From Aradus depressus (lineage: Eukaryota; Arthropoda; Insecta; Hemiptera; Aradidae), in the NCBI GenBank assembly GCA_963662175.1, contig OY759222.1:14828222-14892221 (forward strand): DNA of 64,000 nt, read 5' to 3'. The notes beneath the pieces were generated by a model. That model ran no database searches, was not told the origin of the DNA, and saw nothing but the letters and a program-made list of their open reading frames with translations. Shown one piece after another: positions 22,901 through 64,000 of this stretch. The translations under genes and the position numbers were made by a program. Numbering within the stretch: the first letter of the stretch is position 1; the number at the start of each line of letters is the position of its first letter.

Positions 22901-23189
22901 ACAGTAAAACCCCTCTGCAACGGATAGTCACGGGACCAAGAAAATTGTCCATTGCAGAAGGGTCTCCGTTGAGGAGAGTAAAAAAAACATTATATGTATG
23001 TAGGTGCTTGACTTGTAAACGTTTAATTTGCTTTTTATGTTTAATACTACACATATAGGTAACAAACCATATATAATTACATAAAACATACATAATAATA
23101 GTTATTATGGATTTTAGGTTAATAAACCAAACAGTAGGTATGTATGATACTTGACATTTTTGCAGAGATATTGTGAAACACAATAAAAA

Positions 23190-23400
23190 ATATAAAGAAA
23201 ACGAATGTTTTTTTTGAAAATATTGTCTATTTCACAAAATATATACAATATATGAAAATACTGTTGGTATAGCTACTATCTTCAGCCACGACCGTACTGT
23301 ATTTGTTAAGTTGTGACTGAAGATGGTAGCAATACCGAAAGTACTCTCATATATTTTATATACCTTGTGAAATAGACAATATTTCTAAAAAAACATTCAT
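23190..23400. repeat. Inverted-repeat element with hammerhead-like arms
   Basis: ATATTGTCTATTTCACAA near 23220 is mirrored by TTGTGAAATAGACAATAT near 23366. The right arm holds a good hammerhead-like motif (23312-23351). The left arm holds its decayed counterpart, in which GAAA has become AACA. Confidence 0.65.
23312..23351 (+). ncRNA. Hammerhead ribozyme-like motif
   Basis: CTGAAGA (23317-23323), then hairpin GGTA-GCAA-TACC with a GNRA loop, GAAAGTACTC with self-complementary AGTACT as stem III, and predicted cleavage after C23346. Stem I pairs GTGA with TCAT (one G-T wobble). All conserved core positions of CUGANGA...GAAA are present. Confidence 0.65.
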
Positions 23401-24047
23401 TTTTCTTTATATTTTTTAGTACTTATGTATGCCTGTTTCACAAGCAGCGAATTTTACATAAACAACATTCAAAATTACATTTTCCAAATGAATTCTTTTG
23501 TAAGTGTCCGCTTAGGAGAGGTGAATGTATCTCTTGTCGCAAAATTGCTTTTCCTTGTCTGTTGCGAGGGGGGTAAAAATACATTGTTTTTCTATACTTC
23601 AGCCTGGGACATCGCAAAGAGGGGTTTTACTTTATTTATTTTATAATACTTTTGGATTTCGTAAATGAGCTTCTGAAATCATTTATAATATAATATATTA
23701 AAAAATAGCTATCATAGACGTTTCGGGAAGCACTCCCATCATGTCTATCTATAATTTATTCAATTAAGGAAGGATTGACCAACAATGAAGTATGAATGAG
23801 GAGAGATCAGGTTTGTGGTCGATAAAAACAAACTTGTATGTAATATTCTGTGGTATTTATTTTTAAATTTTGATTCAATATACGTTTTTATTTATTTGTA
23901 ATTGTTTGTGTTTAGTTAACATATTTTAGTTTTGGTATAAATAATTTAAATGTTATTTTGTTGGTTTAGTTACATTTACTTTTAATGTCGTATCTTCACT
24001 CAAATCTAGCATATTTTATACTCACTAATAATGTATAATGTCAATAC

Positions 24048-36344: not shown

Positions 36345-37608
36345 ATGTTGCTGAAAACAATCCTTATTTTTTGTACTTTTCATTTCAGGTAAGGTTATTA
36401 GTCTTCTGTTTTTTCTTCGTGTAAGCCGTTTAAGATAAACTTTACACTGTTCAATTAGGTCTATACAGTGGCATTTTACTATCTGTTGAAAAAAAAATCA
36501 TTATTAATTGTACGGTTTGTGATACAATTATAAATGTTTTTTTTTTAGAAATGATAGTACTCTCTTCACTGACCCAGCTCAAGGATGACGTTTTACTTTA
36601 CGAACTTAGCAGGGTGACACTGAAACTAACGCATGCACTTCAAGATTCGTATTAGATCGTGTTTTTCAGACCAAATAATAGAAAAATAAACATGAGGAAT
36701 GCCTCGCTCAGATGTTCATACCAAAAACTACCCTTCATTTTCTTATATTTTCGAGTTCGTCCAAACTAAAATTGTGGATGAAAGAACTCCACACTGAGAA
36801 AACTAATCTGTCTCAGGATTAAATAACATGACGTAAAATAAAATGATAGATAAAACACTTTTTTGAACATTTATATTGTCTAATTCCACAAACATGTACT
36901 TAAATGTGTACCGGTTTCGGCTTAGCTCAACAATGAACCTTGTGCTGACGATGGCGTAAGCCGAAACCGGTACACATTTAAGTATATGTTTGTGGAATTA
37001 GACAATATAAGTTTTCAAAAAAGTGTTTTATCTATAATTTTATTTTATTTATTAGTATTTCCACTATATCAACACAGAACGCAAAAAATGTATTCGGACA
37101 ATAACATGACGGCATAGTATTTAAAAAAAAAAAAATTTTCTTCATTATTTGTAGGGGTTGAATAATTTCATGTTAATTGAAAATTATGAGTATTTATTTG
37201 AACAAAAATTAACATTAATAATAGATTTAGTCTATCACCTTTTGTGGTTTGTTAATTTGTACTCAATTCACTTGTTCCGGGGGAACTCGGGGATTGCATA
37301 TGGTCTCCATGTCTTTCATGTGCGGCCAGTAACCGTGCTCTAGAACTGTTTCTTTTAAAATAATTATAAAATATAAATTAAAATAAGAATAATCTGGAAA
37401 AAAAATGTCGGTGAATTACCGGCAATGTATACTGCCCCAGAACAATTAAATTTTCGCTCCCCCTCTAAAACCAGTCGACAGTTTGCTCTAATATTCAACA
37501 GTTGCCTTACGTAGGGGTCCTTAATCCTCACACTAAATTTTATAGGGAGGCCTGTACTGCTTCACTAAAAGGACCAATGGGAGTGCCAATGTTATTTTTT
37601 GGATACAT

Positions 37609-43700: not shown

Positions 43701-46700
43701 TTATACATTTTTTTAGAGCACATATGTTTTTCATCTTCGGTCGAGAAATGAGCTTTTCTTTTCCGGTAGTCGGAACCAGACTGTTTTTTTTTTTGTTTTT
43801 TCTCCAATACCATGATGAAACTCAAGTCACACTCGCACGTAATTTTTAAAAAATTTAAATTAATTCTTACTTTTAAAAACGTATTCCCGTGTCGAAGGTT
43901 CAAAAGAAAATGACAAATTATGATGAGGCATGATTACCTGACAGGGGGGGGGGAGGGGATTCTGGACGGCTACCAGCATCTGTTAACATCTTACCTGCTC
44001 AAAGTTTATGGCTTCAGTCTTGGGTTTTCCAACAAATTGTTCCAATTCCTATTGTTAACATTGGTACATATAATTTAAAACTTGTGGATTTTCAAATTCA
44101 TAAAAATAATGGAATTCCCATTTATTTTTTAATTTTTATAACACGAAAAAATCCACTATTTTATGAAATGATTTTATGTCAATATCACTTCTCACTTATA
44201 CAAATTATCTATTTTTTTTATACATAATCGGCGCCCCGGACTGCCGCCGACTCCGATTATAAGTATACTGTATGTGTGTGATTATTTTCGTATAAAGTGT
44301 GGGAGGTGTTCTATTATCTTTCCTAAAGAAGTTAACTTATAATTGACGCCACAATGTTATCACATTCAAAATAAATTATAATATTTAAAACAGTACATTC
44401 ACTCTTAATATTAACCTAGAAAATTGACATAAGAATTTTCACATATTTTCTGAAAAACACAGACAGCAAGCAACGTTGGTAGATAGGCAGCAACCAGAAA
44501 CGGTCAACCACAGACAGAGTCAGATATATCGGGAAAGTCCCATCCGAAGGACGACGTGCTCAAGGTTATTTTCAACCTAAGTGAAATTTCACCTACCCAG
44601 GTTTATTTACATAACATAGGTACGTCTCATTATCGAGTACCTCACATTCGAAAAAGCCCTGGATCATCGCTGTTAATCTTAAATAAATAAAAATATAAAT
44701 AATAATTAAAGAAATAACTGAATTAATAATAATGAAATAAACAATAAACAATAAATTACCACATTTCCTGTAGAAATTTTATAACTGGTCTTTTACTAAA
44801 TTTTGATTTCTACAGTACCTAGTTTTCGAAAAGGGTCCTAAAAATATCAAAAGTTCAAGACGTGCAATTGTTAAGAAAGTGCACGTATTAAAAAAAAAAT
44901 GCAATTAACCATATTTTCATTTGGATTTCTAAAGAGATGCCATTTTTAATCATTTTAAATAATATTAAATCCAATCCGAGGGTTTTCAAATAATCTTACT
45001 GGGTCAACAGGGAAAATGAATAGAATATAATTTTCGTGAACAAATATTGGGTTTATTTTCTTGAATCTACATTATTAAAATAAAAAAACTAAACATGGAA
45101 ACAAACAAAAATCAAAAGAAAAATCTTAAAAACTAAATTCTTAACACTAATTCAATCTTTTTTGTTTTATTTTTTGACCATTTTTTAAATTTAAGTTATC
45201 TATATATTTCTGGGCATATATCCTGTACATATAAACAAACAACAGTACCTTCTTTGCGGATCAATTTCACTGTCAATTCACTTCTATTTCGTTCATTTCA
45301 AATTAAGCCTAAACACCACTTTCCACATACTCAGACCGTCGCCATTCCCAGGCCTCGACTCGTCTCTCCACACACTGATTAAAACAGCTGATGGCCGTGT
45401 TTTTTTTTTTTTACTCATTTGTTTTAAAGGAAAGCTTTTTATATAAATATAATTAATTTTTTAATGTTTAAAATTAAGGTTGAGTTTCAGCAGCATCGAT
45501 TTAATGAAATTTACATATCAAATTATTCAAATATTCAGCTATCTGAAATCCAGTGATTGTGCTAACATTATTTTTTGCAGGAACTATAGCTTTAGAGGGA
45601 AAGGAGATAATCTTGAATCAGTGTTCTCTCTACAGGGTCTGTCTCAACTGTCGTCTGGACAAAGTGCTATCTCCAGTCTCCGTTTCCAATGGGATCGCCT
45701 ACAATAGTAGAAACGACATTATGTATTACGCCGACACTCCAACCCGCAAAATCGATGCCTTTAACTACGATCTCGAGACTGGTCAAATTCGTAAGTTTAT
45801 TATTTATAAACATCAAATAATTATGTCCTGTTATGTTAGTTTTAGTTTGTAATGTTAGTTGTTCTGGCGCTAATGTTCTCTGCAGTCGATGCGCCTGATA
45901 AAAAAAAATAAATATAAAAAAAAATTAATTTCTATGATTATTTTTATAAAATTTTTTATTTTTAATTAATTCGATTATTGTAAAAAAAAATATTCCATTA
46001 TTAATTTTTAGAAAAATTCAATATTTTATCGATATTGTGTACGTCTAGATAAATCACAAGATATCAACTACAACAGAATTATGTCTATTGTTTACACCTC
46101 ATAGTAATAAATAACTTCTTTGTTTCAGTTCGGTTTACATTTTATTTGCTTTTAAAAAAAATAAATAAATTTTGTGTAAAATATTGATTCTTTGTTACAC
46201 AACACTCATTTTAATTTAATCTATGTTTATTTCTTTGTGCATCAAAGTGTTTTTAAATTCTCAAAACCATAAAAAATTGACATTTTCAAACAAAACTTTT
46301 CCTACAAAAGATACGTATTTTTTTACGTAGAATACAAGTAGGGTAAGAATGTATGTTTTGGCGCAGCCACATGTGGCACCAGTGGTGGCTCCCTTGTGGC
46401 ACCTCCCCCCACCCCTGTGTGGCACCCGTCTGAGGCTCCCCTGTGAGGCTCCCACCGCACAACATCTATTCCCATGGCTCGCGCAGCTCCCTCCGATGTA
46501 CTTCCCCAGCTCAACCCCTGAGCACCCCCACCTTAGGACCCACCCTTTTTTTTCTATAAAGTGTATGGAGAAAATATAGTCCATGACGTCACACCGACAT
46601 GTCCAGACCTGCTTTTCCTAAGAGGTACTTCCCCAGCTCAACCTGGTGAGCACCCTCACCTTCGGACCCACACAATCCTTTGATTTTTTTAAATTTAAAT

Positions 46701-49700
46701 ATTAGTAAATTATAATAAGCATACTAGCGCTCCCAAGCGTCTAGAATGTAAATTAATATTTATATAAGTAGCTAGGTGCGGCTTCTTAATAAAAAAAATA
46801 ATAACTTGTACTTACGGTATCGAACCCATCTACTTTGACTTGAGAGGCCGATACGCTAACCACGCGACCATTGTGACATGGTTGCTGAAGGTGGTGATAA
46901 TCTAGGTATATAAATCTCCGGGGAGTATTAGCAGCACCAAGGTTCAGCGGTTTCTAGCCTTTTCACATATTTTGATCACCCCTCACCCCAAATTTCTTTC
47001 AAGTCATCCTTACTATATATTTTTTTTAATTCACATTACCCTCTCCTAATTTTCCGCGATCGTATAGCAATGTGGTTCCACTGAGGTATGGAGGACGTAT
47101 AGCAATGCGGTTTCTCTGAGGTATGGAGGTCGTATAGCAATGTGGTTCCTCTGAGGTATGAAGTAAGTAGTAATAACATAGTGGTTCCTCTGAGGTATGG
47201 AGTAAGTAAAACAATGTACCTCCCCAGCTACATCCTATGCATAGACAAAGTATAGTCCTTTCCCCTCCCCTCCCATTCCCCGCCCCTTTTCCAGAAAAAT
47301 CCTTGAGGGCGCTCAACTGGGTTGAAGGAGACCTAACCAGAGAGCCCCCACTCGACCAAATTTTGTCATCCTTCTTAACCCAAAGAAGTTTCCGCTCTCC
47401 CCAACACAACAACAGTCACTTCTTAGGAACATTTCTTCTAATTTTTTATTTCTATCTAGTCTTACACACCACATCAATGATGTCCTTTAAACCTTTTTTT
47501 TCTCAAGTTGGCGTAACCAATCGCCCTTCCCAAAACTTTTGCATCTCTCAGACCCCCTCATCACATTACAGAAGCCACTATGAGGTCAACCTATACTAGA
47601 GTTGTTCACTTTGAATCACATTCAATGTACCATCCCACATCAACTCTTCACCCAATGTACCTCCCCAGCTCAACCCCTATAAGTCATCTCTCGCTTGAAT
47701 CACTTACCCAGCGCTCAACAACCACGCCACTATTTTCTTACTTTGCCCACTAGAGCTCCCAAGCTTCTAGAATTTATAGATTGCTAGATGCGACTTAAGG
47801 AAAAAAATAACTTGCCCTAACGGGGATTGAACGCGGTCCCGGCACCTTTGGCATGGGAGACAAGCAGCTAACCCCGAGACCTACCCTGTTGAAGCAGGCG
47901 AAAATCTAGGTATACAAGTCAACAGATATCTCAAGAGGCATTGTAATCCGACTAAAGATTATTTTTCTGATCACTCATACAGACCCATCTCACACTATAT
48001 TTTTCATTACAGTCCTACTTCCACACATCAATCATTATAAAATCATAATTCGTAAATCCTACTTCCCCAGATCAATTTTACTTCTCCTTCTAAACCTGAA
48101 CAACATCAATAGGAACCCTTACACTCCATCCAAAATATTTTTTCAAGACCGGCATACATTCACTTTTACTTCCTCATACTAATTCTCCGTCAACCATCAG
48201 AACAGCGTCATAGTCAGTCCATCTCAATTTTCTCACTTATACTTCCCCACATAAATTAGATAATTTTTTACTCCAGCTTGTCTACACCCGAGCAATTTTC
48301 TTAAGATTTCATAATAGCCCATTACTTTTGACCTTAGCACCATCCTTCTTTGCCCAACTCATACAACCTCTCCTCTAGATCGTCTGACATTTTTTTCGGT
48401 CTATTCATACATTCTACGCCCACGAACCTTCCCCTATGAATCAGTCGTACTTACCCACCACAAATCACCTTCAATGTACATACCAACGCCAACACTTCCT
48501 TTAAAATCATAATTTCTCATTACAATCCTACTTCCACACATCAATCATTCTAAAATTATAATCTTTAATTATAGTTCGACTTCCTCAGACCAATTGTACT
48601 TCTTCCACTACTACAGATCCGCCTACACCTAGTTCTCGGGTCTTTCTCATATTTTATACTTAACAACATGAATTTTTTTAATTTTTTCTCGTTTTGTCCT
48701 AACCAATTTTTGACTCTCACCTCTAACCCTTCTACTCACACACTATTCTGCTTCCACTACTACAGACCCACCCACACCACTACCCTAAGGATTTTCTTTA
48801 GATTTCGTCATAGTCTAATCGGTACTCTTAACCTTTTCCTTAGCACCATCCTTCTTCACACGTTTTCTTCGCCCAACTCCCACAATCTCTCTAGACATGA
48901 TTCGTTTAACATTTTTTCATCATAACCGGGTTTACCCATACATACACCGGTATCATCCTACAGACCCATTCAACTTAGACTTTTTTATCCCTTAATTCTA
49001 GTAACCAATCTTTAGCATCATTACTCTACATACCAATTTCCTAGTACACATTAAAATGTTATTTTTGAATTAATGCCAGGGCGGTAACCTCCTTTGACCC
49101 TACTCAATATAAACTATCAACCCAAAAACAAAGTAAATAGGTATTCCCTCCCAGCTAAATTCTCGTTCCCTCTCCTGTATAGTATACCTTAAGCTCTACA
49201 GTGAACCATCCCGACCCTAACACAATGTCTATCGCCTTATACATATTATTGTATTTATCATGGTAAGTTATATCACAAAACATTTTCCTACAACTAACAT
49301 TCAACAGTACCCAAATTAAGATCAGCACACTACTCTGGATGTAGAACACATTCCCGTACATACGACATTTTCATCATACCCATTAGGATACTTGAATCTA
49401 CAACACACCTCTCCCTTGCTCTATAATACTCTTTAGGACTAGATGTACCTTTTCCGCGGTCTCATGGAGACATTCTTCGATCAACATGTGGTATATTTAA
49501 CTTAAATTATTTTACATGCTGCTTTTTGTATACCTTAATTTCACTTGGACTGCTTTTCATCTCCAGCCATCGCTTGGGCTGCTTCTCGCCAACCTCTCTA
49601 CATTCACCTCATACTGAAACATACTTTATGAGGGGTACATCTCTACCAATCTTCGGTTTTACTGGTTAAACACTTGTTTTCTCCTGCCACCAACAGTCTA

Positions 49701-52700
49701 CAGTAATTGCTCTCATAGCCTTAGAGACCTCGCCCAATCCATACCAATTTGCCGCTCTTCAATTCTACTTACCATACATTATACCGAGATAGGCTTCTAC
49801 AAGTATAGACCACACCTCCGTCAACATTTGATTCAAACCACTTCTATCCCAATAAACCTTTCACTGAGACATACATACATACTAGCATACAACATCAGCC
49901 AAGGGATTTTCTTCAGAATTCATCATAACCTAACCGGCACTCTTAGCCTATTCTTTAACATGTACCAAAAAACCTCGTGATTCACACATTTCTTCAACCA
50001 ACTTATACAACCTCATCGATATTCTTACTTCAAATCCTATGATCCTAGCACCCCAGGTCTTCATTTACACCCTGTTTTATATGTATTTAAATATTTTCAC
50101 ATACCTAATCCGGCAATGACAACATCCACAGTTCTCGTCGATATTTAGATTCGCATTTCCAATGTTACTTTAGCCTCACTATATTTTTCGACTAAAACCT
50201 AAAGTAGGAATACATTTCAGTTACATCGATAGCTTTAATTCATACTTCATCACCAACTTCCTACCACCAATAGACCTCACCTACTGTATTACGGACATCT
50301 CATCTAGGACTTCATACTCTTTCCTCTACAACCTATTACACACATACAACATTATATATACTAAAAACCTTTTCAGCCTATACGCATTTATTTAATTAAT
50401 TAGCTTATTCCCTACCATCCTTTGACATCGCCCTAGTATGCAACAATACCATTGTAAATGTTTCATTAGGTTTTACATTTCACATTTTCATATATATCAC
50501 AGACCACAATCATTATTGAACCCTCCCTACTACTTCACTACCTATGGATTCTGTCAATTAAACACGTACAGCACAGCCGAGTAATTCAGACCGACCTCAC
50601 ACCCTCATGTGCCCTTTGCATTTTCTAATACTCTTGTATACAATACCCATAATTCCAACATCTTCCATTTATCATCTTCATACCTAACACCTATGATCTA
50701 TTCTTTTCTTTAGAACCATCTATACCCTAAAACCCCTGCTTCACACTTCACTCAACTCCCAGCACCACAACCTCTCCGAAATTTTTGTAATGTCTACTGC
50801 TGGGGAGCAGTACATCATAGTTCTCCAAAGACTTGTACTATCTTAACATAAATCATATATATCCATTTTCAACAGAATTACTAACATATATTTTACAAGA
50901 TTAGATTCATAATCGTAAATCTCCGGTATTTTTCAGAGTTCTCAGAGTTATTTGACCCCAATTCGATGTCACAAGAAGCTTCAAAACAGTCTGTGTACTA
51001 TTCGTTTTTCCTTGTGTATTTAATACAATAAATTCATGTATATACCTTACCGCCTCTGAAGCAGTCCTACACAAACTCCCCAATACTTGGTACATTCGGA
51101 CCTGATTTCATGCTGGAAGTCTTATAAGAGTATATTAATACGTCTTCATACATCTGACAAACTACATTTTCAGAACCATCAACATTCTCCCAACATATAA
51201 ATTTCTTACCAGAACTTTCAAGAAGACCGGACCATATTCATTCGAAGCTCAACCTTATAGGATGTGTATTCACAGTATTATCATGAATAAACTGAAAACA
51301 AATCCACTCCTTGTATGATGTACAACTCAATGGGGATACCTAAATACCATTCCTATCAATCCTTGGCTTAACATCTTTAAACTTCAAGTTTCACAGAATG
51401 TAACTTAGACACAGTATTTGTGTGCTCATGGGACTGTGGAGCGGGCATTTCTCAAGTTTTAAAGTGTTTAACACAAAATCCATCTTTTGTTTTAAATTAC
51501 ATACTTTATCATCAGCTGTACCCAATATACCTCTTTTCATAAAGTATCCAGTGTTTTATTAGACATGTAGCATATTTCGATTAGTATCCTTGTAGGTCAC
51601 CCATTTTTCGACAATTGAAACTCTTATAATAACACCCTGACGTAGGTATTCATTCCAGTCACACAGCTGCAAAATTGTTTTATTCCTTTAAAAATTAACC
51701 AACAAAACCATCCTATGCGAAGAAGTCATTGAACAATTTACCCACTTAGCTGGATAAATATTTTTTAAATGGTAAAATCTAGGCCTTGTAGGCCCCAAAA
51801 CGCATCAGATCTTTACATTTATAATAAAGTAGCACAGATCCCGATAACCAAAGTAGGAACCATTATAACATCCAACTAATGCTAGAATAGTATAGGCTAG
51901 GATAAAATATATATTTTACATACTTTGCAACACATCATTCGAGAACGTAACCTACCGCCATACACCATTTAAATTTTTTTTTACACAAACAACACATTAT
52001 AGAGGTATACAACCTTATTGCTACGAAACCACCGGTTCAAAATTTCAAACACATTGATACTCATCGCACTAAAACTATACATTTTTTTAGTACAACCCAT
52101 ATCATACCTTGACATAACCTTTGGCAACAACAATACTTCAAAACCCAGGTTTTGCGTTTTTCTTTAGGTCCTTTACATTACGCATTTTTCATATACATCA
52201 CAGACCCCATCATTATTGAACCCTATACTCATAAAATCATTCATTAAAACTACTTCACTACCTAACTACTTTTTTCATCTAAGCACGTACAGCACAGTCG
52301 GTAGGTTATAGTTCACACCGACCTTACTCATACAACACACATACTTACATACATTTACATACACTTCAATTTTAATTCATACCCTATAAAATTATAACCG
52401 TCAGCCCCTGTATTATTCTCAAACTATGTCAAAAGCGCTACAAACCCACTGACTTTTTTGTTCACATGTGACACCTATTATAGTCTTATAGGCCTGCATC
52501 AAACACCATCCACACCTTACAGCGAACTCTATCACAAGTAGCTCCATCTCTTTGGCATGTGTCATATTTCGATTCGTATCCTTTTTTAAGTCATTTTTCA
52601 TATATGTGACTTTTTATCGCCCACATACATGTGAAACAATTCTTTAAACATAATTTAAGTACATCAACTAATATTCTTAATATATTTTACTTATTTCATA

Positions 52701-55700
52701 CATTCATTTCCTTTATGTCACTTAGGATGCTCCTCACCAACATCAGAGCTTTACACCAGGAGTCCCCTCAGACCTGTATCATACTGAAAATATACTTTTT
52801 ACCCCCTCAAATAATTTTTCTGGTTCTGATCAGTCTTACCTACCAACAGCAATTGTTAGCTCTCTCAGGAACCTTATAATTTCTCACACCATCACACACC
52901 AATTACCCCACTTATTCCAATCCTACATGTCGAAACAGAGAATATTTCCGGAGAGTCTTAACCCCAATAGGAGCCCTTGTACCGAACCTCCCATCCCTCC
53001 TTTCTAGATGTCAGACACTTAAAATTTCTTTGACATCTACCCACTTTTTACCCCAAACCAACCTACATCCTAGTCCATCATGCATCATAACTTTAGCATA
53101 GACCACCTAATCCTTAACGCGAACTCCGGCATTTACTTTATGTCACTTCGGGTGCTTTTCACCACCCTCGACACAGATCACGCCTGAAGTGAGCCGATTA
53201 TAGTCGAACACACCCCGATTATAGACGAGTCAAACGACCGGAGGACACCTGTTAACAACGTATACCAAGTTAAACTAGATAAAAATCCAATATTTATATA
53301 AAAATGTGGAATTATACATAAATCGGACCAAAAAGTGTATAATTATTGAAAAATGTGGTGTTTTTACATAACTCAGTCAAGAAAACGTGGTAATGAGACA
53401 AATTAGACATTATAAACTGGATAATGTTGTTACATCAACACAGCCGGCAGAAGACCTCTCCGAGATACAGTGTGCTCGGATGTATATAGTTTAAACTCTC
53501 CTCACATCTACATTTTCTAAGGAGTTTCATAGAACTTGAAGTAAATTTTGTAACATCTACTGACTGACGATTACGAGAGATGTGTGCTGCAAAGCCGGGT
53601 TGGGGTCTCTAAACGGAGTAACTACTACAGCCGGGTTTGGGGGTCTGTATATAATATAGCCGGTGTGAGGGTCTGTACATAATATAGTCGAGGCTTCTAC
53701 TTACTGACTTTTGGCAAGAGATGGGGGCTGTATAGCCGAGCCGTGTGAGGGCCTGTATGCATTTCTCTATGCGGAGTCAGAGGGATCGGGAAGGAGACAC
53801 TGCTAGAATCATACCGATATCAAATTTCATAAAAACATGAGGAAAATTAGTCGAGATAGGGAGAAATTGAAACACCTCTGGCTGAGTGGTTAGCAGTGCT
53901 GGTGACCATGAAGGGAGAGCTGAATCATTCTAAGTGGAGAAGTACATTGGTAATGATTCAAAGAACAAAAATTTATATGAAAAATCTAGTTGGAGTGGAA
54001 ACCTCAGGATGGTTAGCAGTGGTTAGGGCTGGGTTTAAGTGGTTTGAGGTGGTTGGGGCTAGGTTCAAGAGGTTTGAGGTGGTTAGGGCTGGGTTTCAAT
54101 GGTTAAAGGTGATTAAGGTTGTGTTTTCAACTGGGGAGGGATTACTACCATACGACCTGAGGCGCAAGATTGGTGGTCACCCCTCCCCAGTTGAAAACAC
54201 AACCTTAATCACCTTTAACCATTGAAACCCAGCCCTAACCACCTCAAACCTCTTGAACCCAGCCCCAACCACCTCAAACCACTTAAACCCAGCCCTAACC
54301 ACTGCTAACCATCCTGAGGTTTCCACTCCAACTAGATTTTTCATATAAATTTTTGTTCTTTGAATCATTACCAATGTACTTCTCCACTTAGAATGATTCA
54401 GCTCTCCCTTCATGGTCACCAGCACTGCTAACCACTCAGCCAGAGGTGTTTCAATTTCTCCCTATCTCGACTAATTTTCCTCATGTTTTTATGAAATTTG
54501 ATATCGGTATGATTCTAGCAGTGTCTCCTTCCCGATCCCTCTGACTCCGCATAGAGAAATGCATACAGGCCCTCACACGGCTCGGCTATACAGCCCCCAT
54601 CTCTTGCCAAAAGTCAGTAAGTAGAAGCCTCGACTATATTATGTACAGACCCTCACACCGGCTATATTATATACAGACCCCCAAACCCGGCTGTAGTAGT
54701 TACTCCGTTTAGAGACCCCAACCCGGCTTTGCAGCACACATCTCTCGTAATCGTCAGTCAGTAGATGTTACAAAATTTACTTCAAGTTCTATGAAACTCC
54801 TTAGAAAATGTAGATGTGAGGAGAGTTTAAACTATATACGTCCGAGCACACTGTATCTCGGAGAGGTCTTCTGCCGGCTGTGTTGATGTAACAACATTAT
54901 CCAGTTTATAATGTCTAATTTGTCTCATTACCACGTTTTCTTGACTGAGTTATGTAAAAACACCACATTTTTCAATAATTATACACTTTTTGGTCCGATT
55001 TATGTATAATTCCACATTTTTATATAAATATTGGATTTTTATCTAGTTTAACTTGGTATACGTTGTTAACAGGTGTCCTCCGGTCGTTTGACTCGTCTAT
55101 AATCGGGGTGTGTTCGACTATAATCGGCTCACTTCAGGCGTGATCTGTGTCGAGGGTGGTGAAAAGCACCCGAAGTGACATAAAGTAAATGCCGGAGTTC
55201 GCGTTAAGGATTAGGTGGTCTATGCTAAAGTTATGATGCATGATGGACTAGGATGTAGGTTGGTTTGGGGTAAAAAGTGGGTAGATGTCAAAGAAATTTT
55301 AAGTGTCTGACATCTAGAAAGGAGGGATGGGAGGTTCGGTACAAGGGCTCCTATTGGGGTTAAGACTCTCCGGAAATATTCTCTGTTTCGACATGTAGGA
55401 TTGGAATAAGTGGGGTAATTGGTGTGTGATGGTGTGAGAAATTATAAGGTTCCTGAGAGAGCTAACAATTGCTGTTGGTAGGTAAGACTGATCAGAACCA
55501 GAAAAATTATTTGAGGGGGTAAAAAGTATATTTTCAGTATGATACAGGTCTGAGGGGACTCCTGGTGTAAAGCTCTGATGTTGGTGAGGAGCATCCTAAG
55601 TGACATAAAGGAAATGAATGTATGAAATAAGTAAAATATATTAAGAATATTAGTTGATGTACTTAAATTATGTTTAAAGAATTGTTTCACATGTATGTGG

Positions 55701-58700
55701 GCGATAAAAAGTCACATATATGAAAAATGACTTAAAAAAGGATACGAATCGAAATATGACACATGCCAAAGAGATGGAGCTACTTGTGATAGAGTTCGCT
55801 GTAAGGTGTGGATGGTGTTTGATGCAGGCCTATAAGACTATAATAGGTGTCACATGTGAACAAAAAAGTCAGTGGGTTTGTAGCGCTTTTGACATAGTTT
55901 GAGAATAATACAGGGGCTGACGGTTATAATTTTATAGGGTATGAATTAAAATTGAAGTGTATGTAAATGTATGTAAGTATGTGTGTTGTATGAGTAAGGT
56001 CGGTGTGAACTATAACCTACCGACTGTGCTGTACGTGCTTAGATGAAAAAAGTAGTTAGGTAGTGAAGTAGTTTTAATGAATGATTTTATGAGTATAGGG
56101 TTCAATAATGATGGGGTCTGTGATGTATATGAAAAATGCGTAATGTAAAGGACCTAAAGAAAAACGCAAAACCTGGGTTTTGAAGTATTGTTGTTGCCAA
56201 AGGTTATGTCAAGGTATGATATGGGTTGTACTAAAAAAATGTATAGTTTTAGTGCGATGAGTATCAATGTGTTTGAAATTTTGAACCGGTGGTTTCGTAG
56301 CAATAAGGTTGTATACCTCTATAATGTGTTGTTTGTGTAAAAAAAAATTTAAATGGTGTATGGCGGTAGGTTACGTTCTCGAATGATGTGTTGCAAAGTA
56401 TGTAAAATATATATTTTATCCTAGCCTATACTATTCTAGCATTAGTTGGATGTTATAATGGTTCCTACTTTGGTTATCGGGATCTGTGCTACTTTATTAT
56501 AAATGTAAAGATCTGATGCGTTTTGGGGCCTACAAGGCCTAGATTTTACCATTTAAAAAATATTTATCCAGCTAAGTGGGTAAATTGTTCAATGACTTCT
56601 TCGCATAGGATGGTTTTGTTGGTTAATTTTTAAAGGAATAAAACAATTTTGCAGCTGTGTGACTGGAATGAATACCTACGTCAGGGTGTTATTATAAGAG
56701 TTTCAATTGTCGAAAAATGGGTGACCTACAAGGATACTAATCGAAATATGCTACATGTCTAATAAAACACTGGATACTTTATGAAAAGAGGTATATTGGG
56801 TACAGCTGATGATAAAGTATGTAATTTAAAACAAAAGATGGATTTTGTGTTAAACACTTTAAAACTTGAGAAATGCCCGCTCCACAGTCCCATGAGCACA
56901 CAAATACTGTGTCTAAGTTACATTCTGTGAAACTTGAAGTTTAAAGATGTTAAGCCAAGGATTGATAGGAATGGTATTTAGGTATCCCCATTGAGTTGTA
57001 CATCATACAAGGAGTGGATTTGTTTTCAGTTTATTCATGATAATACTGTGAATACACATCCTATAAGGTTGAGCTTCGAATGAATATGGTCCGGTCTTCT
57101 TGAAAGTTCTGGTAAGAAATTTATATGTTGGGAGAATGTTGATGGTTCTGAAAATGTAGTTTGTCAGATGTATGAAGACGTATTAATATACTCTTATAAG
57201 ACTTCCAGCATGAAATCAGGTCCGAATGTACCAAGTATTGGGGAGTTTGTGTAGGACTGCTTCAGAGGCGGTAAGGTATATACATGAATTTATTGTATTA
57301 AATACACAAGGAAAAACGAATAGTACACAGACTGTTTTGAAGCTTCTTGTGACATCGAATTGGGGTCAAATAACTCTGAGAACTCTGAAAAATACCGGAG
57401 ATTTACGATTATGAATCTAATCTTGTAAAATATATGTTAGTAATTCTGTTGAAAATGGATATATATGATTTATGTTAAGATAGTACAAGTCTTTGGAGAA
57501 CTATGATGTACTGCTCCCCAGCAGTAGACATTACAAAAATTTCGGAGAGGTTGTGGTGCTGGGAGTTGAGTGAAGTGTGAAGCAGGGGTTTTAGGGTATA
57601 GATGGTTCTAAAGAAAAGAATAGATCATAGGTGTTAGGTATGAAGATGATAAATGGAAGATGTTGGAATTATGGGTATTGTATAAAAGAGTATTAGAAAA
57701 TGCAAAGGGCACATGAGGGTGTGAGGTCGGTCTGAATTACTCGGCTGTGCTGTACGTGTTTAATTGACAGAATCCATAGGTAGTGAAGTAGTAGGGAGGG
57801 TTCAATAATGATTGTGGTCTGTGATATATATGAAAATGTGAAATGTAAAACCTAATGAAACATTTACAATGGTATTGTTGCATACTAGGGCGATGTCAAA
57901 GGATGGTAGGGAATAAGCTAATTAATTAAATAAATGCGTATAGGCTGAAAAGGTTTTTAGTATATATAATGTTGTATGTGTGTAATAGGTTGTAGAGGAA
58001 AGAGTATGAAGTCCTAGATGAGATGTCCGTAATACAGTAGGTGAGGTCTATTGGTGGTAGGAAGTTGGTGATGAAGTATGAATTAAAGCTATCGATGTAA
58101 CTGAAATGTATTCCTACTTTAGGTTTTAGTCGAAAAATATAGTGAGGCTAAAGTAACATTGGAAATGCGAATCTAAATATCGACGAGAACTGTGGATGTT
58201 GTCATTGCCGGATTAGGTATGTGAAAATATTTAAATACATATAAAACAGGGTGTAAATGAAGACCTGGGGTGCTAGGATCATAGGATTTGAAGTAAGAAT
58301 ATCGATGAGGTTGTATAAGTTGGTTGAAGAAATGTGTGAATCACGAGGTTTTTTGGTACATGTTAAAGAATAGGCTAAGAGTGCCGGTTAGGTTATGATG
58401 AATTCTGAAGAAAATCCCTTGGCTGATGTTGTATGCTAGTATGTATGTATGTCTCAGTGAAAGGTTTATTGGGATAGAAGTGGTTTGAATCAAATGTTGA
58501 CGGAGGTGTGGTCTATACTTGTAGAAGCCTATCTCGGTATAATGTATGGTAAGTAGAATTGAAGAGCGGCAAATTGGTATGGATTGGGCGAGGTCTCTAA
58601 GGCTATGAGAGCAATTACTGTAGACTGTTGGTGGCAGGATAAAACAAGTGTTTAACCAGTAAAACCGAAGATTGGTAGAGATGTACCCCTCATAAAGTAT

Positions 58701-61700
58701 GTTTCAGTATGAGGTGAATGTAGAGAGGTTGGCGAGAAGCAGCCCAAGCGATGGCTGGAGATGAAAAGCAGTCCAAGTGAAATTAAGGTATACAAAAAGC
58801 AGCATGTAAAATAATTTAAGTTAAATATACCACATGTTGATCGAAGAATGTCTCCATGAGACCGCGGAAAAGGTACATCTAGTCCTAAAGAGTATTATAG
58901 AGCAAGGGAGAGGTGTGTTGTAGATTCAAGTATCCTAATGGGTATGATGAAAATGTCGTATGTACGGGAATGTGTTCTACATCCAGAGTAGTGTGCTGAT
59001 CTTAATTTGGGTACTGTTGAATGTTAGTTGTAGGAAAATGTTTTGTGATATAACTTACCATGATAAATACAATAATATGTATAAGGCGATAGACATTGTG
59101 TTAGGGTCGGGATGGTTCACTGTAGAGCTTAAGGTATACTATACAGGAGAGGGAACGAGAATTTAGCTGGGAGGGAATACCTATTTACTTTGTTTTTGGG
59201 TTGATAGTTTATATTGAGTAGGGTCAAAGGAGGTTACCGCCCTGGCATTAATTCAAAAATAACATTTTAATGTGTACTAGGAAATTGGTATGTAGAGTAA
59301 TGATGCTAAAGATTGGTTACTAGAATTAAGGGATAAAAAAGTCTAAGTTGAATGGGTCTGTAGGATGATACCGGTGTATGTATGGGTAAACCCGGTTATG
59401 ATGAAAAAATGTTAAACGAATCATGTCTAGAGAGATTGTGGGAGTTGGGCGAAGAAAACGTGTGAAGAAGGATGGTGCTTAGGAAAAGGTTAAGAGTACC
59501 GATTAGACTATGACGAAATCTAAAGAAAATCCTTAGGGTAGTGGTGTGGGTGGGTCTGTAGTAGTGGAAGCAGAATAGTGTGTGAGTAGAAGGGTTAGAG
59601 GTGAGAGTCAAAAATTGGTTAGGACAAAACGAGAAAAAATTAAAAAAATTCATGTTGTTAAGTATAAAATATGAGAAAGACCCGAGAACTAGGTGTAGGC
59701 GGATCTGTAGTAGTGGAAGAAGTACAATTGGTCTGAGGAAGTCGAACTATAATTAAAGATTATAATTTTAGAATGATTGATGTGTGGAAGTAGGATTGTA
59801 ATGAGAAATTATGATTTTAAAGGAAGTGTTGGCGTTGGTATGTACATTGAAGGTGATTTGTGGTGGGTAAGTACGACTGATTCATAGGGGAAGGTTCGTG
59901 GGCGTAGAATGTATGAATAGACCGAAAAAAATGTCAGACGATCTAGAGGAGAGGTTGTATGAGTTGGGCAAAGAAGGATGGTGCTAAGGTCAAAAGTAAT
60001 GGGCTATTATGAAATCTTAAGAAAATTGCTCGGGTGTAGACAAGCTGGAGTAAAAAATTATCTAATTTATGTGGGGAAGTATAAGTGAGAAAATTGAGAT
60101 GGACTGACTATGACGCTGTTCTGATGGTTGACGGAGAATTAGTATGAGGAAGTAAAAGTGAATGTATGCCGGTCTTGAAAAAATATTTTGGATGGAGTGT
60201 AAGGGTTCCTATTGATGTTGTTCAGGTTTAGAAGGAGAAGTAAAATTGATCTGGGGAAGTAGGATTTACGAATTATGATTTTATAATGATTGATGTGTGG
60301 AAGTAGGACTGTAATGAAAAATATAGTGTGAGATGGGTCTGTATGAGTGATCAGAAAAATAATCTTTAGTCGGATTACAATGCCTCTTGAGATATCTGTT
60401 GACTTGTATACCTAGATTTTCGCCTGCTTCAACAGGGTAGGTCTCGGGGTTAGCTGCTTGTCTCCCATGCCAAAGGTGCCGGGACCGCGTTCAATCCCCG
60501 TTAGGGCAAGTTATTTTTTTCCTTAAGTCGCATCTAGCAATCTATAAATTCTAGAAGCTTGGGAGCTCTAGTGGGCAAAGTAAGAAAATAGTGGCGTGGT
60601 TGTTGAGCGCTGGGTAAGTGATTCAAGCGAGAGATGACTTATAGGGGTTGAGCTGGGGAGGTACATTGGGTGAAGAGTTGATGTGGGATGGTACATTGAA
60701 TGTGATTCAAAGTGAACAACTCTAGTATAGGTTGACCTCATAGTGGCTTCTGTAATGTGATGAGGGGGTCTGAGAGATGCAAAAGTTTTGGGAAGGGCGA
60801 TTGGTTACGCCAACTTGAGAAAAAAAAGGTTTAAAGGACATCATTGATGTGGTGTGTAAGACTAGATAGAAATAAAAAATTAGAAGAAATGTTCCTAAGA
60901 AGTGACTGTTGTTGTGTTGGGGAGAGCGGAAACTTCTTTGGGTTAAGAAGGATGACAAAATTTGGTCGAGTGGGGGCTCTCTGGTTAGGTCTCCTTCAAC
61001 CCAGTTGAGCGCCCTCAAGGATTTTTCTGGAAAAGGGGCGGGGAATGGGAGGGGAGGGGAAAGGACTATACTTTGTCTATGCATAGGATGTAGCTGGGGA
61101 GGTACATTGTTTTACTTACTCCATACCTCAGAGGAACCACTATGTTATTACTACTTACTTCATACCTCAGAGGAACCACATTGCTATACGACCTCCATAC
61201 CTCAGAGAAACCGCATTGCTATACGTCCTCCATACCTCAGTGGAACCACATTGCTATACGATCGCGGAAAATTAGGAGAGGGTAATGTGAATTAAAAAAA
61301 TATATAGTAAGGATGACTTGAAAGAAATTTGGGGTGAGGGGTGATCAAAATATGTGAAAAGGCTAGAAACCGCTGAACCTTGGTGCTGCTAATACTCCCC
61401 GGAGATTTATATACCTAGATTATCACCACCTTCAGCAACCATGTCACAATGGTCGCGTGGTTAGCGTATCGGCCTCTCAAGTCAAAGTAGATGGGTTCGA
61501 TACCGTAAGTACAAGTTATTATTTTTTTTATTAAGAAGCCGCACCTAGCTACTTATATAAATATTAATTTACATTCTAGACGCTTGGGAGCGCTAGTATG
61601 CTTATTATAATTTACTAATATTTAAATTTAAAAAAATCAAAGGATTGTGTGGGTCCGAAGGTGAGGGTGCTCACCAGGTTGAGCTGGGGAAGTACCTCTT

Positions 61701-62598
61701 AGGAAAAGCAGGTCTGGACATGTCGGTGTGACGTCATGGACTATATTTTCTCCATACACTTTATAGAAAAAAAAGGGTGGGTCCTAAGGTGGGGGTGCAC
61801 AGGGGTTGAGCTGGGGAAGTACATCGGAGGGAGCTGCGCGAGCCATGGGAATAGATGTTGTGCGGTGGGAGCCTCACAGGGGAGCCTCAGACGGGTGCCA
61901 CACAGGGGTGGGGGGAGGTGCCACAAGGGAGCCACCACTGGTGCCACATGTGGCTGCGCCAAAACATACATTCTTACCCTACTAATACAAGTATGCAATT
62001 AAAACTATGGGTTTTCCATTGAAAAAATCGAAGTTCCCCTCGATTTGACACTGAAAACGGCACTCAAGGTTAATTTTCGTATTACCATTATATCGCACCC
62101 TTGCTTCAAAAGTGCCACAACTCAAAAAACTCAGTTTTTCAGGAAATGCGAAAAACAGCTTCCAGCTAGGTAAGGTAAATTTTAGTTGATCTAGTGACGT
62201 CACCAAGCAAAACTTAGCGTATAATTTACGATAGATTGTGGTCCTGCAGATTTTCCAAGTTTTCAACTATAAATCTCGGTTTTTTGAGTTGTGGTCCTTT
62301 TGTTGCCTAACAAAGACTAATGAGTGCAAACATAAAAAAACTACACAACTGCTACCTAGCGGCTGAATTTTCAGTGCATTATCTGGCGCTTTAGGTGATT
62401 GGTATAAACTTAAAAACCAAGTCGAATGGCAGTCTTAACTAAAAAACCCGAATTTTTGAGTTGTGGCACTTTTGAAGCAAGGGTGCGATATGTCCCCCTT
62501 TAAACCCTGTAACTTTGGTTTGAACAATTTTTTTTCGATAAAGCTTGTTTTTCGATTTATTCTTGTTTTTCAGGTTAAATAAATCACCCTCATATCAT

Positions 62599-62665: not shown

Positions 62666-63411
62666 ATAAAATGAATGTATCAACATGAAATTTTATATGT
62701 AAATCCAGAACCCTCTAAGGACGACACCGTCAGCCAAATGGGAGGGGGGAAGGCTTAACGAAAACACTTTAATAACTGCCATTGTAATTAATGTGTTGAC
62801 ACAAAATTTTATTTGTAAATTCAAAACCCTATAAAAGGACGAAATCAGAATATATGTATTCCATAGATTATAATTTGTATATTCGATATATATAATTTAT
62901 ATGTATGATATATTGTACCAAAAGAACAACAAATCATACAATAATTTAAGGAATACCAAAATGTAGGGCTTAAATGTTGGAATTATTCCAGGGAACCGTA
63001 GAACTCACTTCCATTTAGACTGGTACAACATTACTGGATCTCCCGATGGGATGACCATAGATGCAGATGACAACTTGTGGATTGCACTTTTCGAAGGACA
63101 TAGAGTAAGTGTGTATATAGTGCAATATACTATGTATCATGTTTTGTCAACTCTTGTCTAAACATTTTGGATTTTAAAATAATTTTAAATGTTTTACTCC
63201 ATTATTTTTTAGATTATCCAAGTTTCACGAACTGGTAAATTGATTCGATCCGTCTGGTTTCCTGTTAAATCGATCACCTCTTGCACTTTTGGCGGGAAAG
63301 GACTGCGCACTCTTTACGTGACTAGCGACAGTGAGACTCTCACTGAAGAGGAGCTGGCCAACCAACCTCTTGCTGGTGTTGTCTTTCAAGTCGATGGCCT
63401 TGGAGTTACAG
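36345..63411 (+). CDS. Secreted SMP-30/regucalcin-like protein, copy B (last exon outside window)
   Basis: Exons 36345-36388, 38518-38678, 42607-42807, 45581-45790, 62992-63104 and 63213-63411 match copy A exactly in length and phase. Exon 1 encodes [14 protein letters not shown], a signal peptide. Key blocks are kept: [77 protein letters not shown] and [16 protein letters not shown]. No stop or frameshift was found, and the exon 6 donor (GTTAGT) is better than in copy A. A terminal exon of about 70 bp is expected beyond 64000. Intron 2 contains the 71-bp satellite and a hammerhead-bearing element; intron 4 contains the 15.6-kb palindrome. Tandem duplication is the simplest origin. The exons have stayed similar while the introns have filled with unrelated repeats. 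Confidence 0.87.
36840..37040. repeat. Inverted-repeat element with hammerhead-like arm
   Basis: TATTGTCTAATTCCACAAAC (36877) is mirrored by GTTTGTGGAATTAGACAATA (36988), and the arms continue through ACCGGTTTCGGCTTA/TAAGCCGAAACCGGT. The right arm carries the complete motif at 36939. The left arm has lost the CTGANGA part. It lies in intron 1 of regucalcin copy B. Confidence 0.7.
36939..36978 (+). ncRNA. Hammerhead ribozyme-like motif
   Basis: CTGACGA (36945-36951), hairpin GGC-GTAA-GCC, GAAACCGGTA with self-complementary ACCGGT, predicted cleavage after A36972, and stem I TGTG/CACA (4 bp). It is a near-identical relative of the motif at 15452. Confidence 0.65.
37405..37545 (+). repeat. Dispersed repeat family C, end fragment
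   Basis: GAATTACCGGCAATGTATAC to ATCCTCACACTAAATTTT; same end as at 7395 and 10360. Confidence 0.55.
37601..37696. repeat. (TA)n microsatellite
   Basis: Uninterrupted AT dinucleotide run of about 95 bp. Others lie at 36277-36314, 5857-5880 and 62606-62662. Confidence 0.95.
37697..38313 (+). pseudogene. R1-like LINE C-terminus and 3' UTR
   Basis: The first part reads [20 protein letters not shown] and PDHCMSQ in one frame, then a frameshift near 37795 leads into [20 protein letters not shown] followed by [20 protein letters not shown], the C-terminal Cys-rich block typical of R1-clade LINEs. After the stop at 38088 the 3' UTR matches 14130-14400 and ends in an A-run. The 5' side is cut off at the (TA)n tract. 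It sits in intron 1 of copy B. Confidence 0.8.
38909..40189. repeat. GC-rich 71-bp tandem satellite, about 18 units
   Basis: A unit containing GGGGTAGGTGGGCGGTCGTG, ATGTGGAGACGCCAAGG and CGTCAGTGCGGCTGGGCTGA repeats every 71 bp. Units are nearly identical. The exceptions are a 3-bp deletion in the third unit (near 39091) and GGGCCCGGGG instead of GGGTCCGGGG near 38982. GC content is far above the surroundings. The array lies in intron 2 of regucalcin copy B. Repeated 66-codon open frames on the minus strand are a by-product of the periodicity. Confidence 0.95.
40191..40252. repeat. Palindrome at satellite edge
   Basis: AAAACAAATTTTAATTAA on the left is mirrored by TTAATTAAAATTTGTTTT on the right around TCAGTGTACTGA. 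It begins immediately after the last 71-bp unit. Confidence 0.75.
40411..40453 (-). ncRNA. Hammerhead ribozyme-like motif
   Basis: Minus strand GGCC, CTGAAGA, hairpin GAAAA-TAAATAG-TTTTC, GAAACGTT, GGCC. Stem I GGCC/GGCC is perfect, and stem III ACGT is self-complementary. One of the best candidates in the window. Confidence 0.7.
41251..41294 (+). ncRNA. Hammerhead ribozyme-like motif
   Basis: Partner of 40411 in the opposite arm. The core and stems II and III are the same, but the bases after the predicted cleavage site read TGCC rather than GGCC, which costs one stem I pair. Confidence 0.6.
41690..41961 (+). repeat. SINE family A, 5'-truncated
   Basis: Starts within the tRNA-like head (ACCCGACCGAGGCCC) and runs to the AAACCTAACCT tail. 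ATATATTTAA occurs on both sides and may be the target duplication. In intron 2 of regucalcin copy B. Confidence 0.8.
41962..42606. other. Intron 2 of copy B, remaining part
   Basis: AT-rich, with a GC-richer patch at 42300-42370. No further feature identified. Confidence 0.3.
43026..43066 (-). ncRNA. Hammerhead ribozyme-like motif
   Basis: Minus strand CTGATGA, hairpin GATATA-AAA-TATATC, GAAACTTTGG. Stem I GCT/GGC allows a wobble. Stem III ACTT has lost self-complementarity, so this arm is probably inactive. Confidence 0.5.
43467..43510 (+). ncRNA. Hammerhead ribozyme-like motif
   Basis: CTGATGA (43473-43479), hairpin GATATA-AAA-TATATC, GAAACGTT with self-complementary ACGT, stem I GCC/GGT. 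Intact partner of 43026. Confidence 0.6.
43546..45580. other. Intron 3 of copy B, remaining part
   Basis: AT-rich. A piece at 44535-44670 shares CATCCGAAGGACGACGTGCT with SINE family A but is strongly diverged. No other gene or element ends seen. Confidence 0.35.
45791..46330. other. Intron 4 of copy B, left of the palindrome
   Basis: AT-rich. TGTTCTGGCGCTAATGTTCT to GCGCCTGATAAAAAAAA (45858-45909) looks like the extreme 3' end of a LINE. Nothing else. Confidence 0.35.
46331..46336. repeat. Target-site duplication AATACA (left)
   Basis: AATACA abuts the first base of the palindrome and is repeated at 61984-61989 directly after its last base. Confidence 0.7.
46723..46916 (-). repeat. tRNA-like module 1, left arm
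   Basis: Minus strand: A-box-like TGGTCGCGTGGTTAGCG and B-box GGGTTCGATACC about 35 bp apart, followed by AAGTTATT, a T-run and CTAGACGCTTGGGAGCGCTA. The flanks do not form an acceptor stem, so it is a tRNA-derived (SINE-like) module and not a working tRNA gene. Confidence 0.65.
47744..47918 (-). repeat. tRNA-like module 2, left arm
   Basis: Homologous to module 1: ATACCTAGATTTTCGCC, then A-box-like TAGGTCTCGGGGTTAGCTGC, B-box GCGTTCAATCCCC, AAGTTATTTTTTTCC and TTCTAGAAGCTTGGGAGCTC. More diverged in the anticodon-loop region. Confidence 0.6.
53895..54139 (+). repeat. Degenerate tandem block at the palindrome centre
   Basis: GGTTAGGGCTGGGTTTAAGT, GTTTGAGGTGGTTGGGGCT, AGGTTCAAGAGGTTTGAGG and similar units of about 36 bp alternate up to the spacer. 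Just before it, GGCTGAGTGGTTAGCAGTGC (53880) resembles a tRNA A-box. The open frame here is probably repeat-driven. Confidence 0.6.
54141..54180. other. 40-bp spacer (hairpin loop) of the palindrome
   Basis: ATTACTACCATACGACCTGA plus GGCGCAAGATTGGTGGTCAC separates the arms and is not self-complementary. If the arms paired as a cruciform this would be the loop. Confidence 0.9.
60403..60577 (+). repeat. tRNA-like module 2, right arm
   Basis: Mirror copy of 47744-47918, on the plus strand. Confidence 0.6.
61405..61597 (+). repeat. tRNA-like module 1, right arm
   Basis: Mirror copy of 46723-46916. Here the A-box lies at 61451 and the B-box at 61493 on the plus strand. Confidence 0.65.
61984..61989. 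repeat. Target-site duplication AATACA (right)
   Basis: Second copy of the direct repeat. It is followed by AGTATGC, so the presumed empty site reads ACGTAGAATACAAGTATGC. The AGTA after it happens to equal the first four bases of the element, which leaves the duplication length formally between 6 and 10 bp; arm symmetry favours 6. Confidence 0.7.
62091..62490. mobile_element. MITE with terminal inverted repeats
   Basis: TATCGCACCCTTGCTTCAAA and AGTGCCACAACTCAAAAA at the left are mirrored by GTTGTGGCACTTTTGAAGCA and AGGGTGCGATA at the right. Length is about 400 bp. It lies in the same intron as the palindrome. Confidence 0.75.
62606..62850. repeat. (TA)n tract and family C fragment
   Basis: A TA run to 62662, then ATGTATCAACATGAAATTTT and TAATTAATGTGTTGACACAA, two reversed family C units. 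Confidence 0.6.
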
Positions 63412-64000
63412 GTTAGTACTTTTTCTACTTTTAATATAAAAAAAGTATTGTAATTTTGCGGAAATCCGAAATTGAGTTTTCAATAGAATTCTACGTCTCA
63501 ATGTCTGTTTTGATCATTTTCGCGATGATGCCTGTTTATATGTATTTTCAAATTACTCTAAATCGATTGTAGCAGTGAACTTGAACATGTGCCAACATAG
63601 ACTTGATTTTGGACGAAATCGGATGAAAATTAAGATCATTTTACTTCGAGAATCCCCCCTACGCAGAGGCTCATAAGTCAGTTTCGTTAAGGATAAAGAA
63701 ATATGCAAGTTAAATTGAGAAAGACGTCTTAGTGATGCGCGAAGGTCCTCTTTCGGTCTTGCTGACGTCATTCGTTTACAGACTATGACTGTTACTATTA
63801 TAATAATATTTATTGATTATTAATTCATGCGCTTCGTCAAACCACCCAAAATATTAGCACCCTTCTCCTTCATCCTTCCAAATCTTGAGAATAGGGTATA
63901 ACATCCAAATCTTGAAACAATTAAATTTTACCCCCCAGGACAAAGATTCTCTACAAAATTAATTCTCTCTATTAAATTAAATCTCTATTTTTCGTAAGGG
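63412..64000. other. Intron 6 of copy B (5' part)
   Basis: Begins with the GTTAGT donor; the first 110 bp resemble the same intron in copy A (GAAATC-GAGTTTTCAA, TTTTGATCATTTTC). The terminal exon is not reached before the window ends. Confidence 0.5.

Follow-up and report, generated by a model that had tools for sequence, protein, structure and literature searches.

The question raised by this locus is how an element that is an inverted repeat from tip to centre can be copied, kept symmetrical and inserted. It lies in a stretch of 64,000 nucleotides of the hemipteran Aradus depressus (contig OY759222.1, positions 14,828,222 to 14,892,221, forward strand; hereafter the window, C8:14828222-14892221 in the genome searches) and spans 15,647 bp at 46337..61983. 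We consider it likely that it is a non-autonomous element from a wholly palindromic family of Polinton/Maverick type, whose members would be copied by snap-back synthesis and integrated in trans.

Structure and content of the window element

When the window was compared with itself, the element appeared as a single inverted match to its own reverse complement from end to end. Its left arm of 7,804 bp (46337..54140, + strand) begins with AGTAGGGTAAG, and its right arm of 7,803 bp (54181..61983, - strand) is the left arm inverted, with AGTAGGGTAAG mirrored at its end. Outside the centre, 6 substitutions and 1 one-base indel separate the two arms (about 99.9% identity), as the first-pass annotation had described them in proposing a near-perfect palindrome with arms of about 7.8 kb and a 40-bp spacer. 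This 40-bp centre (54141..54180, unstranded) consists of imperfect 10-bp stem tips around a 20-nt loop at 54151-54170, and the tips are mismatched at 54141/54180, 54143/54178 and 54146/54175. The element ends in AGTAGG...CCTACT, and the 6-bp flanks also noted at first pass are an exact target-site duplication of host sequence, AATACA, at 46331..46336 and 61984..61989 (both + strand). The duplication starts exactly at the limit of the palindrome on both sides and the outer flanks are dissimilar. A palindrome that stops at an exact 6-bp duplication between unlike flanks is the signature of an insertion, and for the same reasons an artefactual origin is hard to reconcile with the locus.

The element was further said to have no recognisable protein, and this held up. 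Open frames in the left arm reach 129 amino acids at most, a Pfam scan of the 76 arm frames of at least 40 amino acids gave no convincing match (E 0.0076-0.075 for nine families, each in a single frame), two arm frames found no match among 5.8 billion proteins and the arm has no 3-base periodicity. No RNA families were found, ARAGORN detected no tRNA within the 64-kb window, pattern scans of viral contig and genome contig collections returned 0 matches, and the other repeats in the window have no clear relation to the arm (best E 0.035).

A recently mobile family of palindromes

The genome searched was one assembly of 697.7 Mb in 74 contigs, and the genome-wide counts given here are lower bounds. 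With 40 of 771 candidates scored, the outer 1 kb of the arm gave at least 42 matches, and 34 of these form 17 inverted pairs less than 25 kb apart, and the mid-arm kilobase gave at least 40 matches (of 603 candidates), with 32 forming 16 inverted pairs. Ten further copies (E1-E10) were compared through stretches fetched from both ends and eight more pairs (E11-E18) through their ends only. The arm recurs inverted in all ten of E1-E10, several with complications: the centres of E1 and E7 are altered, E6 (24 kb) has two centres, E9 carries a duplication in its interior and the tips of E4 are rearranged. Flanks were comparable in 16 of the 18 further copies, with E6 (palindrome beyond the fetched ends) and E12 (ends outside the fetched stretch) left out of the flank counts; 15 of the 16 have an exact 6-bp duplication and the flanks of E18 are unlike. 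The first-pass annotation had proposed to look for copies that keep the ends but differ in their 6-bp flanks, and these 15 supply them.

Together with three coding palindromes described below, 20 elements (the window element, 16 copies found by their arms and the 3 coding ones) have comparable flanks, of which 19 show exact 6-bp duplications, 18 of them distinct, with a preference for a central TA (T at position 3 in 14/19, A at position 4 in 15/19). The family ends are AGTAGG or AGTAGAG, and in some copies the first 50-70 bp are replaced by other sequence that is alike at both ends. Sizes are mostly 14-17 kb, E7 with its lost centre measuring about 11.2 kb. All 8 further copies in which the loop was read (E1 and E7, with their altered centres, and E11-E18 being left out) carry the same 20-nt loop, with a mismatched tip that departs by one base from that of the window element. 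As a palindrome can insert either way round, loop orientation is uninformative as a flip-flop test. E5 on contig C5 and E8 on contig C2 differ by 0 substitutions over 7.4 kb of arm and have different 6-bp duplications, so the family has moved recently. The window element thus belongs to a family of wholly palindromic elements with recent mobility.

Related palindromes encoding a DNA polymerase

A genome search for the viral and organellar DNA polymerase B domain (PF03175) gave at least 103 rows (91 of 608 candidates scored), of which the 79 full-domain rows were used for counting and 24 weaker partial rows were left out. Among the full-domain rows listed, 36/79 form 18 divergent pairs 6-10 kb apart. 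For Endonuclease VII (PF02945), 108 of the best 150 rows, from 406 candidates, form 54 divergent pairs 2.7-9.3 kb apart. Among the matches listed, polymerases of the 1219-1252-amino-acid class are paired in 33/37 (PF03175) and 74/78 (PF02945) rows, and the classes of 1214-1216 (PF03175) and 1357-1360 amino acids (PF02945) are paired in 0/24 and 0/12. Inverted pairing tracks the polymerase protein class.

Three of these coding palindromes were checked, the remaining pairs being known only by where their polymerase or endonuclease matches lie. In all three, 4.4-kb stretches surrounding the polymerase domain match each other inversely at 99.96-100%, the ends are of the AGTAG kind and the 6-bp duplications are TACGCT, CCTACC and AATGTT. 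The one on contig C6 (C6:46490805-46507363), which was looked at piecewise with one arm as three pieces, measures 16,559 bp, has the duplication TACGCT and the end AGTAGAGTAGA, and the polymerase stretches of its two arms (4.4 kb) are 99.98% alike; the other two measure about 17.0 and 17.2 kb from their coordinates. Each C6 arm has an outward-reading polymerase in which an Endonuclease VII domain adjoins the polymerase domain. When 10 frames from one C6 arm were scanned, the polymerase alone exceeded the cut-off, and an adjacent frame of 93 amino acids had sub-threshold zinc-ribbon matches. The polymerase stretch had no match in PDB or NCBIfam, and a polymerase scan of viral contigs found no relative. 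One side of the C6 centre (C6:46499000-46499170) has the tip sequence of another subfamily, the E13/E14 type (AGTAGAGAATATATGG), and the other side repeats the first 16 bases of that tip in inverted orientation.

The C6 arm and the window arm have pieces in common that are 73-97% alike, and those at window-arm positions 348, 590, 2141, 5622, 6548, 6594 and 6858 are collinear. On the strength of these pieces the window element is grouped with the coding palindromes, as a heavily rearranged copy without the gene. The first-pass annotation had suggested a new class of giant non-autonomous foldback element. The giant, gene-less, tip-to-centre palindrome in many copies stands, but an isolated foldback class does not, given the Polinton/Maverick-like ends, duplications and size and the polymerase-bearing palindromes with which it has sequence pieces in common.

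Conventional Mavericks in the same genome

The packaging ATPase (PF04665) gave 78 rows in the genome. It lies no more than 20 kb from 12/12 polymerases of the 1357-1360-amino-acid class and from 8/8 tested of the 1356-amino-acid type, for which 8 singles with frames of 1288-1356 amino acids were tested and four loci (730-1165 amino acids) were left out. Among the matches listed, an ATPase occurs within 20 kb of 0/54 palindromic pairs (52/54 Endonuclease VII pairs and 2 pairs known from PF03175 only) and of 0/24 members of the 1214-1216-amino-acid class; by eye, the two omitted Endonuclease VII pairs, both on contig C14 and with short frames, also have no listed ATPase within 20 kb. With no ATPase listed near any of the 54 pairs and one near 20/20 tested members of two classes with a single family-B DNA polymerase (PolB), the palindromes are derived relatives and not complete Polintons. 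The presence of ordinary Mavericks and gene-poor palindromes in one genome suggests a possible helper-satellite relation.

Some further observations concern the Maverick genes. The 24 polymerase frames of 1214-1216 amino acids, which are single, unpaired and have no listed ATPase within 20 kb, represent a third arrangement. Contig C14 (16.4 Mb, 2.3% of the assembly) holds 28/78 packaging-ATPase matches and may be a Maverick-rich chromosome or arm. Divergent pairs of ATPase frames about 10-11 kb apart (C4:51714686/51724602 and C7:46484295/46495286) are perhaps palindromes bearing another Maverick half. A frame of 274/305 amino acids with the integrase core domain (rve) recurs every ~50-90 kb near many contig ends (e.g. 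C1, C2, C4, C6 and C46), on the + strand at low ends and mostly on the - strand at high ends, a pattern that resembles giant subtelomeric tandem units.

How the arms may be kept alike

Within a copy the arms differ by 0-3.2 substitutions/kb and different copies differ by 3.8-20.7/kb, as counted over collinear blocks only (3,868 bp for E4), with the sister groups E5/E7/E8 and E9/E10 as exceptions (0-0.6 substitutions/kb between copies). Over the first 5.2 kb, gapped columns excluded, both arms agree in all 11 copies at 231/250 variable columns. Changes in one arm thus appear, on the whole, to reach the other, and since the two arms of a copy mostly match although copies vary, copying from one arm to the other must take place.

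In the mechanism that we favour, replication of the linear palindrome would start at either end and proceed by protein-primed strand displacement. The nascent strand would pass the loop, halt near the centre and fold back on a perfect GC-rich clamp just outside the tip, after which it would copy its own first arm, so that both arms are newly made from one and the size of 16-17 kb is restored, perhaps at each replication. Such synthesis would make the arms alike and retain the mismatches of the stem tip next to the loop. Insertion of the palindrome would then fall to an integrase of Polinton type that comes in trans from the conventional Mavericks of the same genome or from an unseen partner; the PolB-bearing palindromes could supply the polymerase and window-type copies would supply nothing. 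We suggest more tentatively, regarding it as somewhat short of an even prospect, that these elements form an obligate-palindrome lineage of integrating virus-like elements, with a single-arm fold-back intermediate at each replication and two gene copies evolving as one. Such a lineage would be a satellite of conventional Mavericks that borrows their integrase (and perhaps their capsid, with size set by packaging), and would be a source of gene-less palindromes.

Weighing of the alternatives

Several results weigh against the reading set out above. There is no direct sign of snap-back copying, and gene conversion could also homogenise the arms. At 19/250 columns the arms disagree in some copy, and in E3 and E7 the arms are not both mutually nearest, likely through an internal deletion and a shortened centre. 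Outer tips are unlike in E14, where 445 bp are 90.6% alike, and in two coding palindromes: the tips of the one on C2 are 97.8% alike over 369 bp, and those of the one on C6 reach 98.2% over 164 bp. In E15, E17 and E18 the tips show 11 gapped bases within about 1.3 kb. E18 is also the one element, of 17 tested outside the coding group, with dissimilar flanks. The kinship with the C6 arm is disturbed by matches out of order at 1933, 2529, 3466 and 2453 and by inverted inner stretches at 1332-946 and 308-160. Integrase was not found among the 10 frames scanned from one coding arm, and a search for rve (150 of 2360 candidates scored) was dominated by long frames resembling polyproteins of long terminal repeat retroelements. 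The idea that Endonuclease VII acts as a palindrome-specific resolvase is weakened, since the unpaired 1360-amino-acid polymerases carry the domain too.

The same palindromic Polinton-type family might have its arms homogenised after insertion, by gene conversion or cruciform repair and not by snap-back, which is possible although we lean against it. Long inverted repeats convert readily, the agreement of the arms at 231 of the 250 columns suits conversion as well, and the lasting differences at some outer tips would suit conversion that is patchy. On the other side, the stem-tip mismatches by the loop are uncorrected in 8 further copies and yet kilobases of arm share their changes, and the very young E5, E8 and E9 are already without arm-arm substitution in the compared stretches; neither point is decisive. 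An origin as inverted dimers, made through a closed hairpin end or an end-to-end fusion of a smaller unit bearing terminal inverted repeats (TIRs) and then propagated as palindromes, we regard as unlikely. Replication through dimer bridges is found in parvoviruses and poxviruses, which offer an analogy. The C6 centre holds an element end of the kind seen at the tips of E13 and E14, and part of the C6 inner arm is an inverted copy of the outer part of the window arm. Origin-dependent inverted-repeat amplification (ODIRA), presented as a general route to inverted dimers in PMC4689423, could provide such a step. Nevertheless, the centre of the window family is not an element end and its loop is common to the 8 further copies read, and a dimer accounts for the origin of the palindromes more than for ongoing homogenisation of the arms.

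A cut-and-paste foldback element (P/Galileo, Mutator or similar) with repeats lengthened by interrupted gap repair is improbable. Small palindromes do occur in the window, and Galileo TIRs reach about 1.26 kb in copies without transposase according to PMC3573991, but the 6-bp duplications with AGTAG ends, the sizes of mostly 14-17 kb and the polymerase-bearing relatives stand against it, as do the 7-bp flanks that the same paper gives for Galileo. An assembly artefact, through a missed adapter or a false inverted join, deserves hardly any credence. Of the elements tested, 19/20 have unlike flanks with exact 6-bp duplications, one loop is shared and copies are many, and an artefact would be expected to extend the palindrome into the flanks.

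Repeats of the arm and the host site

The arm contains GC-rich subterminal 13-bp repeats (46412..46453, mirrored at 61867-61908), a 35-bp tandem array (47061..47217, mirrored at 61119-61261) and a G-rich 30-bp array with a 10-bp sub-period (54019..54126, mirrored at 54195-54302), all three unstranded. Between 47337 and 53336 (+ strand) it is G-poor and C-rich, at 10.6% G and 26.6% C, which the right arm mirrors, and in 6-kb windows its GC skew is -0.33 to -0.43 as against -0.07 to +0.19 in 1-46336. This skew brought an origin of parvovirus or mitochondrial type into consideration. The G depletion is extreme on one strand per arm across 46337-61983 without codon periodicity, and the outer non-coding part of the C6 coding element is similarly skewed. 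The sub-period of the G-rich array at 54019-54126 and its mirror 54195-54302 is near the bug telomere motif TTAGGGGTGG as given in PMC12287714, and it runs centreward from both sides in a manner that resembles a head-to-head telomere fusion; both observations are post hoc. The telomere-like centre is weakened by permutation, as 60/60 permuted 10-mers also peak there (top 65 vs 70-71 of 100). A hAT-type reading of the element (TAGGG start, 8-bp duplication) was ruled out by eye, the 8-bp flanks being mismatched in register.

Two regucalcin (SMP-30) genes stand in tandem in the window, and the element sits in an intron of the second one, with one exon just upstream (45568..45822, + strand) and following exons of the same gene at 62975..63490 (+ strand). 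Exon pieces of copy 1 at 24499, 26060, 27988 and 30039 match those of copy 2 at 38467, 42569, 45568 and 62975. Joined by hand, the copy-1 exons are at the protein level closest to a regucalcin of the bug Panstrongylus lignarius (51%) and next to that of Nilaparvata lugens (48%), which points to a hemipteran host. The introns of the two paralogues are too diverged for an empty-site comparison. A GC-rich 71-bp tandem array of 18 copies that are 99% alike lies at 38910-40190, after the first and before the second exon piece of gene copy 2. The window also holds small full-length palindromes at 23184-23418, 30677-31009, 36834-37047 and 42968-43566 (0.2-0.6 kb, 77-88% alike), probably palindromic miniature inverted-repeat transposable elements (MITEs), and an apparently broken Tc1-type transposase at 16526-17520 (+ strand). 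A frame of 480 amino acids at 8394-9836 (- strand) has a CCCH zinc finger slightly under the cut-off, and resembles a NUP42-like nucleoporin.

Significance and comparison with known systems

Palindromes of 16 kb and genome length are expected to be unstable. Here, one polymerase class is nearly confined to inverted pairs (74 of 78 rows among the matches listed). Its open frames are mostly long, and the family has moved recently. The family is a natural system for the replication and insertion of long palindromes, for arm-to-arm homogenisation and for the possible acquisition of satellites by Mavericks, and the window element has placed a potential 7.8-kb hairpin in a host intron. In searches restricted to open-licence papers on palindromic or non-autonomous Polintons, giant palindromic transposons and snap-back defective genomes, such elements were described in none of the listed titles or opening lines of abstracts.

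Palindromic minichromosomes of ribosomal DNA (rDNA) in Dictyostelium and Tetrahymena are like the present elements in being giant palindromes with a short unlike centre, and unlike them in being extrachromosomal DNA of the host and not inserted mobile elements. Foldback/Galileo and Mutator-type foldback elements have long inverted repeats, internal tandem repeats and non-autonomous copies in common with our palindromes, but as described in PMC3573991 their repeats are much shorter, their duplications are of other lengths and they have no polymerase relative; as regards Galileo (P superfamily), the flanks here are of 6 and not 7 bp and no transposase was found in the 76 Pfam-scanned frames of the arm. 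Palindromic MITEs likewise are inverted repeats over their full length without a gene, but usually measure less than 600 bp (PMC3573991), and the window element is about 26 times longer. IS3EU and GingerRoot also make 6-bp duplications, although PMC10045372 and PMC2836005 give TA..TA or TG..CA ends for these and Ginger, as against AGTAG..CTACT, and duplications of 4-5 bp for Ginger.

The closest likeness is to Polintons/Mavericks. Those of vertebrates, as described in PMC8097293, have 6-bp duplications, end motifs of (AGT)2 or (AG)3, lengths of 12.7-24.6 kb and TIRs of 46-1,447 bp. The palindromes agree in their 6-bp target duplication (19/20 with comparable flanks) and in their AGT-rich ends AGTAGG, AGTAGAG and AGTAGAGTAGA, the AGTAGG of the window being one base off the (AGT)2 of that source. 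Most of those measured also agree in size, the window element with 15.6 kb and the C6 element with 16.6 kb falling within the range and E7 (about 11.2 kb) below it. A family-B polymerase (PF03175), which would be protein-primed, is found in the related palindromes and absent from the window copy. They differ in being mirrored over their whole length with one recognised gene per arm or none, in having no listed ATPase within 20 kb of the 54 palindromic pairs, and in arms many times longer than the 46-1,447 bp that PMC8097293 gives for vertebrate Maverick TIRs. The palindromes are best classed as a variant of Polinton/Maverick, palindromic, gene-poor and probably integrated in trans, and not as full members of that group.

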